From Gammaproteobacteria bacterium (GTDB lineage Bacteria; Pseudomonadota; Gammaproteobacteria; Steroidobacterales; Steroidobacteraceae): 64,000 nucleotides of DNA. A program made the translations under genes and the position numbers. The DNA lies in NCBI GenBank assembly GCA_005878835.1, contig VBMV01000049.1, positions 1 to 64,000 of the forward strand. The letters are read 5' to 3'. Of this stretch, positions 7,585 through 41,743 are shown piece after piece (the stretch's first letter is position 1; every line of letters begins with the position of its first letter). The notes under the pieces were generated by a model that had not been told where the DNA came from, did not search any database, and worked only from the letters and a program-made list of their open reading frames with translations.

Positions 7585-7718
7585 CCTTTTTTGGCAACGC
7601 AACCCACACGCGCATCGTTAACCTTGGTGACTGGGTGTCCTGAAGGACGCGCCTCACGGCCCGCCTTGAGGATGGTCACGGGGATGCGCGGAGGCTCAAC
7701 CCGCACAGGAGTCTTTAC
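7585..7718 (+). ncRNA. Structured 5' leader of rpsB (candidate S2 autoregulatory leader)
   Basis: About 134 nt of leader. A closing stem GTGAC (7627-7631)/GTCAC (7675-7679) encloses hairpin A, GTGTCC (7635-7640)/GGACGC (7645-7650) with loop TGAA, and hairpin B, CCTCA (7652-7656)/TGAGG (7667-7671), forming a three-way junction. The ribosome-binding site AGGAG (7707-7711) lies 7 nt before the ATG. In E. coli, S2 represses its own operon through the rpsB leader. That this leader does so is inference; I folded it by eye. Confidence 0.45.
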
Positions 7719-36484: not shown

Positions 36485-37139
36485 TCTGCGCCTGTCCGGC
36501 ATCGGCATGACCTCCGCCCGCACCCGCGATCGGCTGGTGCAGCGTCTGCGCGAACAGGGCATCGCGAATCTCGCGGTGCTCGATCGTATTCGCAACGTGC
36601 CGCGTCATATCTTCGTCGATGAGGCGCTCGGCAGCCGCGCCTACGAGGACACGGCGCTGCCGATCGGCTACGGCCAGACGATCTCACAGCCCTACATCGT
36701 GGCGCGCATGACCGAGGCGCTGCTCGCGGCGGGCGCGGCCGACAGCGTCCTGGAGGTCGGCACGGGGTGCGGCTACCAGACCGCGGTGCTCGCGCCGCTC
36801 GTGGCGCGCCTGTACACCATCGAGCGCATCGAACCGCTGCTCGCGCGCGCGCGCGAGCGCCTGAGGGAGCTCGGGGTGAGGAACGTGCGCTTTCGCCACG
36901 GCGACGGCACGCTCGGCTGGAGGGCGCACGCACCCTTCGACGGCATCCTGGTGGCGGCCGCGCCGCTTACGGTGCCCGAGGCGCTGGTGAAGCAGCTGCG
37001 GGTAGGCGGGCGGCTGGTGGTTCCGGTCGGCCCCGAAGGCGAGCAGGAACTGGTGCGGTTCACGCGCCGCGAGCAGGGGGTGCAGCGCGAGTCACTGGGA
37101 GCGGTGGCCTTCGTGCCGTTGTTGGGTGGCACGGCCTAG
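36477..37139 (+). CDS. pcm: Protein-L-isoaspartate O-methyltransferase
   Basis: Starts repair of isomerised Asp/Asn residues by SAM-dependent methylation. It is 220 residues (208 in E. coli). It shows [37 protein letters not shown] with the conserved Ser, then the SAM loop [16 protein letters not shown] and the [14 protein letters not shown] strand. In many gammaproteobacteria nlpD and rpoS follow; here the next gene is an unrelated large membrane protein. Confidence 0.97.
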
Positions 37140-37200
37140 AAGAGGGCGAGGCGCCACCGGCTTGGGGCAGTTACAGTTCCGTTCAACAGCAGGGGTGCAC

Positions 37201-40200
37201 ATGAGGCTACTGGCGGCTGTGGCGCTGGTTCTGCTCTCGGCCACGGCGGGCACGCGCGCAACGGCGCAGCAGCCCCTGATTCCCCGCGCCCTCGAGGAGT
37301 GGCAGGGGTGGGTGCTGAAGGGCAAGGAATTTCATCGTTGTCCCTTCCTCGCGGGCTCAAACATCGCCGCCGCGGATTCATATCGGTGTGTCTGGCCGGA
37401 GCGCCTGCTGCTCAACCTCGACGCGCATGGCGGAACCTTCAGCCAGCGCTGGCAGGTCTACACGGAGAACTGGGTGGCACTGCCCGGCGATCTGGAACGC
37501 TGGCCGCAGGCGGTATCGGTCGACGGCGCTCCCGCGGCTGTGGTGGCCCGGGGCGACGTGCCTTACGTGCGGTTGACGCCCGGCTCTCACGCACTGAGTG
37601 GCAGATTCGTGTGGGAGGCGCGGCCCGAGACCTTGGCGATTCCCACCCAGACCGCGCTGCTCGATCTGCTCGTTGATGGGCAACGTGTGCTGCAGCCGGA
37701 GCGGCCGGGTGGCCGGCTCGCGCTCGGGCGCCAGGGCACGGCCGCCGAACCGCGCCGGCTCGATGTGCAGCTCTATCGGCTGGTCGAGGATGACATTCCC
37801 CTGCGCCTGGTGACGCGCCTGCGGCTGCGCGCAGCCGGAGACGCGCGCGAGGAGCAACTCGCGCGTGTGCTCCCGGCCGGTTTCATTCCGATGTCGCTCC
37901 AGGGCGCGCTGCCCGCACGGCTCGAGCCCGACGGCCGACTGCGTGTGCAGGTGCGAGCCGGTCGCTTCGAGCTCATTCTCACCGCGCGGCAGGCTCAGGC
38001 TTCCGCGACGCTGTCCTCACCCGGGGAACCCGGCCTCGCGCGCGAGGAAGTGTGGAGCTTTGCGGCCAACGATCGGCTGCGTGTCGCCGCGGTCGAGGGT
38101 GTCGCGGGGATCGATCCGGCGCAGGCGAATGTGCCGGAGGAGTGGCGCCGGTACCCGGCGTTTCGGATGGCCCCGGGTTCGGAGCTCAGGATCGTGGAGC
38201 GCAGCCGCGGTCTGTCCAACACGGACCAGAACCGGCTGCACCTGAGACGTCGATTGTGGCTCGACTTCGATCACGACGGTCTCACCGCTGTCGACGAAGT
38301 GAGCGGAACACTGCGGCGCGACTGGCGCCTGGGGATGCGAGCGCCCTACCGCCTCGCCAGCGCACGCAGCGGCGCCGAGGCGTTGCTTGTGACGAGCTCC
38401 GCATCCCAGGGGGAAACGGGCGTCGAGCTGCGCAGTCCCTCCGTGCAGCTGAGCGTCGTTGCGCGCAGCGCGCACCCGTACGGGGCCCTTCCCGCAACCG
38501 GCTGGACCAACAGCTTCGAGGAGGTGTCGGGCGAGTTGTATTTGCCCCCCGGCCATCGTCTGCTCGCCGTCCTCGGGGCCGACGTATCGCCGACCGCCTG
38601 GCTCGACCGCTGGGGCTTGTGGAACCTCTTCGGCGTGCTGGTGATCGCGGTGTTCTCGTACTGGCTCGCGGGACCATTGACCGCAACGCTCGGCGGCCTT
38701 GGCCTGTTTCTGACCTACCAGGCGGCTCCCGAGTTGATCTGGGTGTGGGGCAATCTGCTCGCCGCGGTCGCCCTGGCGCGCGCCGCCCCACCGGGGCGAC
38801 TCGCGCGTGTCGCGAGTGTTTACCGGACGGTGAGTTTCGCGGTACTCGCTCTCGGGCTCGTGCCGTTCACCTGGAGCGAGGTGCGGCATGCGATCTATCC
38901 GCAGCTGGAAGTCAGCGCCTACTCGCAGACGAGGGCGGCTCCCACCCTTGCCCGCGCCGCGCCGGGGCAGTTGGAAGCGCCAGCGCCAGCGGCTGCGCCG
39001 CCCATCCTGACAGCGATCGGGGGGGAAGTCGCCAAGGATCGGGCGCTCAGCGCTGCCGGCCGGGCCGGCACTCTGAGCAGCGAGCCGGCCCTGGTGAGCG
39101 CTCGCAGAGCGACCTCGGCCGCGGAGCCGAACCTCGCCCGCTACGCCGCCGGAACGCTGCTACAGGCGGGGCCGGGGTTACCCGCGTGGGACTACGGGGG
39201 GCATCCCTTCGGCTGGACCGGTCCGGTCGACCCGGATCAATCCCTTCGCTTCGTCGTGCTCGGTCCGCTCGCGGTGGCCCTGTGGCGCATCGCCGGTGTG
39301 GCGGCGCTGGCGTGGTTCTTCATCCGGCTCGCGCGCCAGAGCTTCGGCACGCCTGTGCGACTACCTGGATTCCTCAAGTCCGGCGGCGCGCTGGGCGCCG
39401 TGCTGCTGGCGTGCGTCGCCGCGGCCCCTCATGGCGCGCGTGCCCAGTCCACGCCCGATCCCGCACTGCTCAACGAGCTGCGTGATCGGCTCACCCAGGC
39501 GCCGCCGTGCGCTTCGACGTGCGCCGAGATCATGCAGGCGCAAGTCCACGTCAGCGCGGATCGGGTGCAGATCGACTTGAAAGCGAGCGCGCTTGCCCTG
39601 CTGGCTGTGGCCGTACCCTCGGCAGGGGATCGCTGGCAGATCGATTCGGTGGCCGTCGACGGTGCCTCCACTCTCACGGTAGCACGTGAGCCCGACGATG
39701 ATATGTGGGTGCCGCTCAAGAGCGGGGTACGCACCATCCGCATCGAGGGGCGCCTCGTGGGCGATAGCGTGCACCTGGCATTTCCACTGGTGCCGCGCAC
39801 GATCTCGGTCGATGCGGTGGGCTGGGATGTCGCAGGCGTGAACGCGGGACGGCTGGTCTCCGGTGCCCTGGACCTCACCCGCCAGCCGCGCGCCGGGTCG
39901 ACCGCGACGACCGCGAATCCGGCAGCCGGTGAGGCTTTCCCGGCGTTCGTGCGCGTGGTGCGAAATTTCCGGCTCGACCTCGACTGGTCGGTCGCGACGA
40001 GCGTTCAGCGTGTGGCCCCGGAATGGGCAGCCTTCACGGTGGCCGTGCCGCTCGTTGCGGGAGAGTCGGTGCTGACCGAAGGTCTTGACGTCCGAGGCGA
40101 CGGTGTCGCGCTCGCGGGGCTCGCGGCCGGCCAGGCCGAGCGCGAGTGGACCTCGAGTCTCGCGCGCAGCGAGCGCCTCGCGCTGCGGCTCACCGCGACG

Positions 40201-41328
40201 CCAGCCCGCGCCGAGGTCTGGCGGTTCGTCGTCAGCCCGCAATGGCGCGTGGACTTCATCGGGCTTCCGGCGGTGCTACCGGAGGATTTGGCCGCCGCTC
40301 AGTGGGTGTTCGAATACCGCCCGCGCGTCGGCGAGCAACTCGAGCTCGCGGTGACCCGCCCCCCGGCCGTACCGGGTCGGACACTCGCCATCGATGCAGT
40401 GCACCAGCGTGCCCGCATCGGACGCCACTCATCGGAACACGAACTCGAGCTGCGCTACCGCAGCACCCAGGGCGGCCGGTATGCGATCCAGCTCCCCAAG
40501 GAGGGCAGCGTTACGCAAGTGGCGGTCGATGGCGAGCCAACGCAGATTCGGCCTGACGGGGGTGAGCTACCCTTGTCGCTCTTGCCCGGCAAGCACACGG
40601 TCCGTATTGCGTGGCGTTCGAAGGACGGCACGTCGATGGCCTCACGTCCTGACACCGTGGACCTGCGCGCACCGTCGAGCAACGTCATGACGACGCTCGC
40701 CTTGCCCGCCGACCGCTGGCCTCTGATGGCGATCGGAGGCGGGGTAGGACCGGCGTTTCTGTACTGGGGTGAGCTGCTCGTGTTTCTCGTGGTAGCGAGC
40801 TTACTCGGTCGGTGGCCGTGGTCCCCGCTGCGCACCTCGGAGTGGCTCGTGCTCGGCCTGGGGCTCTCGACTCTCTCCTGGCGGGTGCTCGTCACGGTGG
40901 CCGCATGGCTGTTCGCGATGCGTTGGCGCGAGCAGTGGCGCGGCGCCTACGATGTCAAGCGCTGGCAGTTCAACATGCTGCAGTGCGCGCTCGCGGCGCT
41001 CACGCTGTTCGCCGTTACGAGCCTCGTCTTCTCCGGCGTGCGGTATGGGCTGCTAGCCTCGCCCGACATGGGTGTGACGGGGCCGGGCTCCGGTGGCAAT
41101 ACCTTCAGCTGGTTCGTCGATCGTGCGACTGCGACGCTGCCGCAGCCGGTCGTATACAGCCTGCCGCTGTGGGTGTACCGCACGATCATGTTCGCCTGGG
41201 CGTTGTGGATTGCGCTCGCGCTCGCACGTTGGCTGCGCTTTGCCTGGCGAGCCTGGAGCGCCGGAGGCATCTGGCGAGGCGCGGTGTTGCCGCCGACGCT
41301 CCCGGCGGCTGGCCAGACTGCGCGCTAG
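37201..41328 (+). CDS. Uncharacterised 1375-residue multi-domain inner-membrane/periplasmic protein
   Basis: I do not recognise a named family. From ATG 37201 (AGGGG upstream) there is a signal peptide (about 1-22). A beta-rich, Trp-containing periplasmic region follows (23-465), with an N-terminal Cys pair (HRCPFL..., YRCVWP). Then come about four hydrophobic helices (473-560), an Ala/Pro-rich linker, a helix (683-709) and a second signal-like segment (729-748, ending HGARAQ). A second beta-rich region (750-1175) starts with PPCASTCAEI. Four or five helices close the protein (1186-1345). A VDG...L..G.H/R...I unit occurs three times (105-138, 817-849, 1107-1138). Function is unknown. Base composition and start context look native. 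Confidence 0.8.
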   Translation: MRLLAAVALVLLSATAGTRATAQQPLIPRALEEWQGWVLKGKEFHRCPFLAGSNIAAADSYRCVWPERLLLNLDAHGGTFSQRWQVYTENWVALPGDLERWPQAVSVDGAPAAVVARGDVPYVRLTPGSHALSGRFVWEARPETLAIPTQTALLDLLVDGQRVLQPERPGGRLALGRQGTAAEPRRLDVQLYRLVEDDIPLRLVTRLRLRAAGDAREEQLARVLPAGFIPMSLQGALPARLEPDGRLRVQVRAGRFELILTARQAQASATLSSPGEPGLAREEVWSFAANDRLRVAAVEGVAGIDPAQANVPEEWRRYPAFRMAPGSELRIVERSRGLSNTDQNRLHLRRRLWLDFDHDGLTAVDEVSGTLRRDWRLGMRAPYRLASARSGAEALLVTSSASQGETGVELRSPSVQLSVVARSAHPYGALPATGWTNSFEEVSGELYLPPGHRLLAVLGADVSPTAWLDRWGLWNLFGVLVIAVFSYWLAGPLTATLGGLGLFLTYQAAPELIWVWGNLLAAVALARAAPPGRLARVASVYRTVSFAVLALGLVPFTWSEVRHAIYPQLEVSAYSQTRAAPTLARAAPGQLEAPAPAAAPPILTAIGGEVAKDRALSAAGRAGTLSSEPALVSARRATSAAEPNLARYAAGTLLQAGPGLPAWDYGGHPFGWTGPVDPDQSLRFVVLGPLAVALWRIAGVAALAWFFIRLARQSFGTPVRLPGFLKSGGALGAVLLACVAAAPHGARAQSTPDPALLNELRDRLTQAPPCASTCAEIMQAQVHVSADRVQIDLKASALALLAVAVPSAGDRWQIDSVAVDGASTLTVAREPDDDMWVPLKSGVRTIRIEGRLVGDSVHLAFPLVPRTISVDAVGWDVAGVNAGRLVSGALDLTRQPRAGSTATTANPAAGEAFPAFVRVVRNFRLDLDWSVATSVQRVAPEWAAFTVAVPLVAGESVLTEGLDVRGDGVALAGLAAGQAEREWTSSLARSERLALRLTATPARAEVWRFVVSPQWRVDFIGLPAVLPEDLAAAQWVFEYRPRVGEQLELAVTRPPAVPGRTLAIDAVHQRARIGRHSSEHELELRYRSTQGGRYAIQLPKEGSVTQVAVDGEPTQIRPDGGELPLSLLPGKHTVRIAWRSKDGTSMASRPDTVDLRAPSSNVMTTLALPADRWPLMAIGGGVGPAFLYWGELLVFLVVASLLGRWPWSPLRTSEWLVLGLGLSTLSWRVLVTVAAWLFAMRWREQWRGAYDVKRWQFNMLQCALAALTLFAVTSLVFSGVRYGLLASPDMGVTGPGSGGNTFSWFVDRATATLPQPVVYSLPLWVYRTIMFAWALWIALALARWLRFAWRAWSAGGIWRGAVLPPTLPAAGQTAR

Positions 41329-41506
41329 CGCGCGCGGCTGCGGCGCCAGCGGCCTTAGGACTTACGTGACATATGGATCGTAACTTCTTGATTACTCCAG
41401 TCGTGCTGGTGGAAAGGCCCGGCAAAACTCAAGGCCCGGGCACTGCGCACGCATGGGGGAAAGGCCCCAGCAGGCGGCGCGAGAAAATCTTCGTCCCTCA
41501 AAGAGC

Positions 41507-41537
41507 TTGCACCGGCTTCCGCGACATGTTTAACATG
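41507..41537 (+). promoter_or_regulatory. Candidate promoter overlapped by a perfect palindrome
   Basis: TTGCAC (41507-41512) and TTTAAC (41529-41534) are 16 bp apart, giving a modest sigma-70-like promoter pointing into the inverted-repeat region. The -10 lies inside a 13-bp palindrome, CATGTT-T-AACATG (41525-41537), which has the symmetry of a repressor operator. Both calls rest on pattern only. Confidence 0.3.
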
Positions 41538-41571
41538 CCGCCTGTCTCCTAACGACGACAGCCAAAGGCGG

Positions 41572-41726
41572 AAGGGTAACCGGCAGAAGACACAGGGTGG
41601 AGGGAGTCGCGACAAGAGCAATAACGGTCCGCAACAAGAAAAACAGTGCAATTGTTCGAGTCTGTCAGCTTCGAATGATTGTTTGGTTGGTTGAGCCTCC
41701 CCTTGTGTCTTCTGCCGATCACCCTT
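41572..41726. repeat. Long imperfect inverted repeat with nested hairpin; candidate structured RNA or small MITE-like element
   Basis: The left arm 41572-41603 pairs with the right arm 41696-41726 over about 28 base pairs. There are two mismatches near the outer end, one G-T pair and one bulged T; the core CGGCAGAAGACACA (41581-41594) is perfect. Inside, CAATTGTTCGA (41649-41659) pairs with TCGAATGATTG (41671-41681) using two G-U pairs, around an 11-nt loop. The asymmetric bubble between the stems has 45 nt on one side and 14 on the other. The outermost bases AAGGGT/ACCCTT could be terminal repeats, but I see no target-site duplication. Confidence 0.6.
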
Positions 41727-41743
41727 AGCGCCCCGGGGCGCTA
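41726..41743. repeat. 18-bp perfect palindrome at the 3' end of the DUF498-like gene
   Basis: TAGCGCCCC and its exact reverse complement GGGGCGCTA abut with no spacer. The sequence overlaps the TAG stop of the minus-strand gene and the last base of the long inverted repeat. As RNA it would need a strained loop, so a DNA-level role or an accident of G+C-rich sequence is possible. Terminator function is not supported by a T run. Confidence 0.5.

Follow-up and report, generated by a model that had tools for sequence, protein, structure and literature searches.

Genomic Location and Architecture

The stretch analyzed here (the window) comprises the first 64,000 nt, forward strand, of contig VBMV01000049.1 from a Gammaproteobacteria bacterium of the family Steroidobacteraceae (assembly GCA_005878835.1; genome G000 in our numbering). 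It bears, downstream of surE-pcm, a block that, judging from sequence comparison, is very probably the gene of a hairpin-shaped small RNA occupying a single chromosomal place in many Steroidobacteraceae. Including its promoter, the RNA gene spans about 41507-41742 on the + strand. The exposed parts of the RNA match the start of the ftsZ messenger, and for this reason it may tune cell division.

The original prediction had delimited a structured, non-coding block of 412 nt with lowered G+C content at 41329-41740. No recognizable gene was found in it; several mechanically called open reading frames (ORFs) overlap it, and none showed evidence of being a gene (they were not each tested individually). 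The lower G+C content was found as well, with 52% at 41575-41725 compared to about 65 to 82% in 200-nt windows outside the block between 39000 and 44000, the drop lying in the second half of the block. One correction concerns its left part: in the comparison with the closest relative (L002), only 136 unmatched bases stand opposite positions 37138-41411. Similarity starts again at 41412, and the bases up to 41411 lie outside the element. They are part of about 4.3 kb that also hold a 1400-aa ORF, in place of which the nearest relative has the 136 unmatched bases.

The gene opens with a sigma70-like promoter motif (41507-41536, + strand) composed of TTGCAC (41507-41512), an 18-nt spacer and TAACAT (41531-41536). 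The pattern TTG-N21-TANNAT, which was picked after inspection of the upstream regions, is present in 43 of 55 homologous upstream regions (0.17 on average and at most 2 in shuffles; 0-2 at other spacings); a generic score for promoters hardly exceeds that of shuffles (mean 3.73 vs. 3.19). Near the expected transcription start, the alignment fold predicts a 5' hairpin, CTGTC-N10-GACAG (41542-41561, + strand), and GTC[TG]-N4..12-CGAC was found in 43/55 upstream regions (shuffles: mean 2.93, maximum 9). The main hairpin follows on the same strand. Its basal helix consists of a 5' arm (41575-41603) forming 27 pairs with a 3' arm (41696-41723) that is backed by covariation in both alignments described below. 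Within it, an asymmetric internal loop has an A-rich strand (41604-41648) with runs of A-R-N triplets, a possible Hfq contact, and a G/U-rich 3' strand (41682-41695), of which UGGUUGGUUG (41684-41693) is complementary, with one G-U pair, to CAACCAACCG in the ftsZ leader. The apical stem is formed by 10 pairs between 41649-41658 and 41672-41681, as given by the alignment fold and covariation, and encloses the apical loop (41659-41671), of which UCUGUCAGCUU (41661-41671) complements AAGCUGACAGA in the same leader. This outline agrees with the predicted one in its outer inverted repeat at 41572-41726 (arms 41572-41597 and 41701-41726, 88% complementary over 26 nt), in its inner stem, with which the centroid fold also agrees, and in its asymmetric bubble with a nested hairpin. 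Directly after the helix, the perfect palindrome AGCGCCCCGGGGCGCT (41727-41742, no strand assigned) may be a terminator hairpin shared by the RNA and the convergent DUF498 gene, and it has no U run. At the position of the palindrome, the relative L068 bears GGCCGCCCTCGCGGCC and then TTTGTTTTTTTT, a terminator-like sequence (no dedicated terminator scan was made). Possible signs of a transcription unit of its own are the promoter-like motif at a fixed spacing and, 3' of the helix, the palindrome or, in L068, the terminator-like sequence.

Fold, Covariation and Strand

The folding energy of 41565-41735 corresponds to z = -7.05 and was equaled by none of 200 dinucleotide shuffles. The covariation check that had been proposed for homologues gave a strong signal. 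In an alignment of 37 sequences (A2), 96.5% of the cells are paired (99.2% in the apical stem), compared to 45-55% in slid versions, with 0/500 shuffles as good and changes on both sides at 18 of 37 pairs. In 40 diverse sequences aligned over the basal helix (A3), 89.6% of the cells are paired (51-59% in slid versions) and 23 of the 27 pairs have changed on both sides. Three of the 27 pairs never vary among the 40 sequences, so the helix conserves sequence as well as pairing. Cells with G-U or U-G outnumber those with A-C or C-A (145 vs. 22 in A2; 88 vs. 31 in the basal helix of A3), a bias that points to the + strand as the RNA. By computation, the + strand RNA has a long hairpin fold under selection, and the covariation, the G-U bias fitting that strand and the conserved promoter-like motif together argue for the RNA gene that had been suspected.

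Hfq-dependent RNAs carry A-R-N repeats or a U-rich tail contacted by Hfq. The longest A-R-N run of the A-rich strand has a mean of 5.3 vs. 3.0 in mononucleotide shuffles, reaching at least 4 in 65/66 sequences and the level of p <= 0.05 in 34/66. The RNA copy of the window has no U tail, and an Hfq gene is encoded in the same genome. Because of the presence of Hfq and of the long A-R-N runs, help by Hfq in pairing is plausible.

Concerning known families, the Infernal scan of the block with all Rfam models, also proposed earlier, yielded no family at threshold. A permissive scan (E-value up to 10) gave five matches, all far under the family thresholds. MIR831, a microRNA hairpin model, scored 24.2 bits against a gathering score of 100 (E-value = 0.011) and was rejected.

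Distribution and Synteny

A DNA search found the element in 18 of 60 genomes, all belonging to the same genus; surplus matches in two of the 18 fell at contig ends or hit the same place on its other strand. When named genomes were scanned with a pattern, there were 53 stretches, 40 of which were judged element-like by eye, under titles such as Gammaproteobacteria, Proteobacteria and Steroidobacteraceae MAG. The other 13, in which the helix is missing (by eye), were rejected as chance, as were three viral stretches with the loop pattern for the same reason. A covariance model built from 37 sequences was positive in 91/200 genomes of the family, in 82/396 genomes of the order, all of them within the same family, and in 2/369 genomes of the class, namely our own genome and one weak match. 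A match in G668 (36.3 bits), a hairpin without the conserved sequence, was treated as chance. With a wider covariance model, the RNA was detected in 93 of the 200 family genomes and in 14 of 25 genera. These searches score few candidates per genome, and absences are therefore less sure than presences.

Synteny is conserved. In all 20 divergent loci examined, the RNA is located downstream of surE-pcm, on the same strand and about 0.1 to 1.4 kb away, and in 16/20 DUF498 was found on its other side, giving the core order surE-pcm-RNA-DUF498-recJ. At 19 pcm loci from other families of the order, the model had no match and another frame, which we take to be YqaA-like, directly follows pcm. Among the matches listed, the element occupies one place per genome, second matches falling at contig ends or on the other strand of that place; G141 has four matches, seen in part. 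Searches of the plasmid and phage collections gave no match to the element.

Homologues differ in the apical region. L142, L145, L147, L141, L146 and L156 have quite different apical loops, which are alike among near relatives. In L076 (1735-1940, same as L157), the apical hairpin is partly tandem-duplicated and presents two copies of the loop.

Complementarity to the ftsZ Leader

Bacterial division centers on the protein FtsZ. In most lineages first aligned, the apical loop GUCUGUCAGCU hardly varies; for the second sequence set, the gathering pattern itself included this loop. Before any target was suspected, 12 genomes were scanned for one exact 11-mer, AGCTGACAGAC, the reverse complement of the loop. 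There were 34 matches (13 for the reversed control), of which 12 are the RNA gene itself. When all 22 outside matches were compared, five, in five genomes, were found to share one orthologous place between ftsA and ftsZ, that is, the ftsZ leader. Two further places, of which one falls within a long open frame, are common only to the closest relatives G000 and G034. In a single genome, AGCTGACAGAC also lies about 50-60 nt before a small ORF beginning with MNALANAFTRDLTCG (L208, G001:C15:201409-201419), a possible second target.

Most ftsZ leaders with the loop site also bear CAACCAACC or a related sequence that complements the G/U-rich strand. Of 80 genomes, 73 yielded FtsZ. The leaders read numbered 70, 38 from genomes whose RNA has the loop (loop-positive), 25 from genomes whose RNA lacks it (loop-negative) and seven others. 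The core of the loop site, GCTGACA, is present in 31/38 loop-positive leaders, in 4/25 loop-negative ones, all four from genus g21, and in 0/6 leaders from genomes without a detected RNA; G024 was first grouped as a seventh of this last kind (0/7 others) and actually has a loop-negative RNA. All seven loop-positive misses of this first set belong to g32 or g38, and outside these two genera the count is 31/31. At 21 loop-positive ftsZ loci, GCTGACA was found in 20 leaders vs. 3 of 674 equally sized control windows, and the CCAACC type in 17/21 vs. 34/674. Orientation is equally uneven, as the loop motif is antisense in 35 of 70 leaders and sense in none, while the strand motif is antisense in 24 and sense in one. 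In g1 the sites mostly lie about 55-85 and 30-40 nt upstream of the start codon, and in g27 the site reaches the ribosome-binding region (GGGGAGCUGACA...AUG). Of the 70 leaders, six contain CTGACAG two or three times. That of our own genome (L231, G000:C13), after ftsA, is among those with three, and it has three copies of AAGCTGACAGAGCGAT, 18 nt apart.

Pairing was evaluated against shuffled and exchanged leaders. A contiguous duplex between loop and leader is better than with shuffled leaders (p <= 0.05) in 32 of 38 loop-positive genomes, and for the 3' strand the same level is reached in 23/38 loop-positive vs. 1/25 loop-negative genomes. When leaders were permuted among 16 representatives, none of 20,000 permutations was as good as the own-leader pairing of this second segment. 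Nine of the 38 RNAs have their own leader as best-ranked partner (G002, G060, G064, G081, G101, G120, G133, G145 and G234). Changes in the RNA are matched in the leader in G002 (CGGUUGGUUAGUCU/AGACUGACCAACCG), G145 (CGAUUGGUGGUC/GACCACCAAUCG), g19 (UGGUGGAA/UUCCACCA) and the g27 genomes G120 and G133 (GUUGGUUGGUUGAG/UUCAACCGACCAAC); in G145, G120 and G133 the order of the sites is also colinear. Unrestricted duplex folding of RNA and leader gave a mean z of -1.4 for loop-positive genomes (p <= 0.05 in 18/38) and of +0.4 for loop-negative ones (0/25). By computation, most loop-bearing lineages show complementarity between the ftsZ leader and two segments outside the helices, with lineage-specific matching changes on both sides.

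Comparison with Known RNAs

Post-transcriptional control of the amount of FtsZ is known mainly from enterobacteria, and Rfam holds a model for one of the RNAs concerned, DicF. Our element has no DicF match at E-values up to 10 and lies at a core rather than a prophage locus. GcvB offers a likeness of another kind, in that a stretch rich in G and U pairs with C/A-rich sequence preceding ribosome-binding sites; it has many amino-acid transport targets and another structure, and the RNA described here has no Rfam match. 6S RNA (RF00013) is alike in outline, with a long helix, a bubble and an apical hairpin, and unlike in model and locus.

In the literature searched, three RNAs were found to act on ftsZ. 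DicF of the Escherichia coli prophage Qin has 53 nt, pairs through its 3' region with the ftsZ mRNA at the ribosome-binding site and represses translation (PMC5069750). The action proposed for our RNA would be the same, that is, pairing with the ftsZ mRNA and repression; the molecule differs in being about 200 nt long, in its core chromosomal locus, in its use of an apical loop and an internal-loop strand, and in having no Rfam match. DinR of Klebsiella pneumoniae is trans-acting and pairs near the ribosome-binding site of ftsZ with a part that is specific to Klebsiella (PMC10907235), whereas our RNA has a promoter-like motif of its own and is conserved across genera. StfZ of E. coli is an antisense RNA on ftsZ, encoded in cis in the ftsA-ftsZ region (PMC9628754), unlike our RNA, which is encoded elsewhere, after pcm. 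We infer a base-pairing RNA that targets ftsZ and whose ancestry and architecture are new within the reach of these searches; neither by model nor by locus is it a member of DicF or DinR. Among the matches listed in open-licence PMC literature on small RNAs of Steroidobacteraceae, on an intergenic small RNA at surE-pcm and on ftsZ-pairing small RNAs, no description of it was found. The ftsZ-acting RNAs found in print are prophage-borne (DicF), dependent on a Klebsiella-specific pairing part (DinR) or cis-encoded (StfZ), while this one occupies a core position across many genera of a single family. Its target sites change along with the RNA, offering natural sets of mutated and matched pairs, and it provides a functional lead in a family represented here mostly by metagenome assemblies.

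Proposed Function and Alternative Explanations

Taken together, we consider it likely that the element encodes, as a gene of its own, a trans-acting antisense RNA of about 200 nt, which would pair with the ftsZ leader and restrain FtsZ synthesis. In the cell, pairing would probably be aided by Hfq at the A-rich strand and would lower FtsZ synthesis. In g27 it would block the ribosome-binding region, since the site touches it, and in g1 it would occupy the C/A-rich segment that precedes the Shine-Dalgarno sequence; sites at these positions suggest repression, as in DicF and DinR. The FtsZ level, and hence division, would track the level of the RNA. Only tentatively do we extend this to a core-genome RNA dedicated to the FtsZ level in much of the family, in which RNA and leader might have co-evolved, tandem target sites could have been gained (three here), the site order of g1 would forbid a simple duplex, and the apical loop would be an exchangeable module that has been retargeted in some lineages.

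Several results weigh against an ftsZ-directed RNA. Complementarity with coordinated changes was found in most loop-bearing genera; however, g32 (0/6) and g38 (1/7, with two near misses) have the loop and mostly lack the site. A held-out test, with the prediction fixed beforehand, covered 18 further RNA-bearing genomes, 15 of them with ftsZ and one of these leaders cut by a contig end; GCTGACA was present in 1/6 loop-positive and 2/8 loop-negative leaders. The held-out set brings no support, nor does it overturn the first set, because all six loop-positive genomes come from g32 and g38, which were already doubtful. Within it, G149 has AGCTGACG at the start site, and G171 has a variant loop, UUGUCAGCUU, together with AGCTGACAG. 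Pooling both sets gives 32/44 loop-positive and 6/33 loop-negative leaders (34 with G024). Furthermore, other apical loops are found in the RNAs of g21, g29, g34, g35 and parts of g1 and g27; of the 25 loop-negative RNAs set against their own ftsZ leader, only that of G141 pairs better than shuffles. No target was found for the other-loop homologues, and the loop of the G003/G180/G219 clade, used as a probe, gave no more matches than its reversed control. Since these other-loop RNAs retain the basal helix, the RNA must do more than pair with ftsZ. Even among loop-positive genomes, some, such as G063 (rank 33/38) and G068 (rank 34/38), have a leader that pairs poorly with the 3' strand of their own RNA, and in g1 the order of the target sites forbids one continuous duplex. 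Single-sequence folding leaves the loop only 51% and the G/U strand only 53% unpaired. Unrestricted duplex folding is weaker and less clear, its duplexes spanning everything, and contiguous duplexes were used instead. Finally, the counts were made without a tree and are not independent, because the genomes are related.

These points bear most on the idea that the ancestral main job lies elsewhere, with a protein that binds the basal helix or with other mRNAs, and that ftsZ pairing was added in some lineages. The basal helix and A-rich strand are kept where loop and ftsZ site are missing, the invariant pairs of the helix fit such a role, and in one genome the 11-mer also stands in the leader of another small ORF (L208). 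We nevertheless regard it as unlikely, given that outside g32 and g38 every first-set loop-positive leader has the ftsZ site and that the 12-genome scan, made with one exact 11-mer, showed no multi-genome place besides ftsZ other than the two shared by G000 and G034. Less probable again is that the RNA pairs with the ftsZ leader and activates translation or protects the mRNA. The g1 sites, upstream of the Shine-Dalgarno sequence and not on it, would permit this, but the g27 site does touch the ribosome-binding region, four leaders that were folded have no clear start-hiding hairpin (by eye) that pairing would open, and DicF, DinR and StfZ all lower FtsZ. It is very unlikely that the shared motif is a DNA site of one regulatory protein at both loci, with no match between RNAs. 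In double-stranded DNA the reverse complement equals the same motif; yet two unlike motifs match, nearly always antisense, they are placed in RNA parts outside the conserved helices, and G-U pairs are found among the matching changes.

Two ideas of the original prediction can practically be dismissed. A 6S RNA, or a second one, resembles the element in its outline of stem, bubble and apical hairpin, but a 6S RNA above the cut-off (RF00013, 58.6 bits) is found on a different contig of this genome (G000:C152:28924-29113), the element has no 6S match at E-values up to 10, and its bubble of about 45 + 14 nt and conserved loop sequence are unlike 6S RNA. A non-autonomous, MITE-like mobile element would fit a long inverted repeat in intergenic space, but not one conserved locus across 14 of 25 genera, absence from the plasmid and phage collections searched, and the outcome of the proposed search of the same genome for other copies, which gave a single place among the matches listed. 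Presence at the same locus in relatives is the very outcome that the original prediction had named as refuting mobility.

Other Features of the Window

The 1400-aa ORF at 37126-41328, between pcm and the RNA, has no match in Pfam (E-value up to 0.001) or NCBIfam (E-value up to 0.01), and the relatives compared have no match to it at the corresponding locus. The sole Rfam match over threshold in the window is a t44 RNA (RF00127) at 7587-7700, presumably the rpsB leader.
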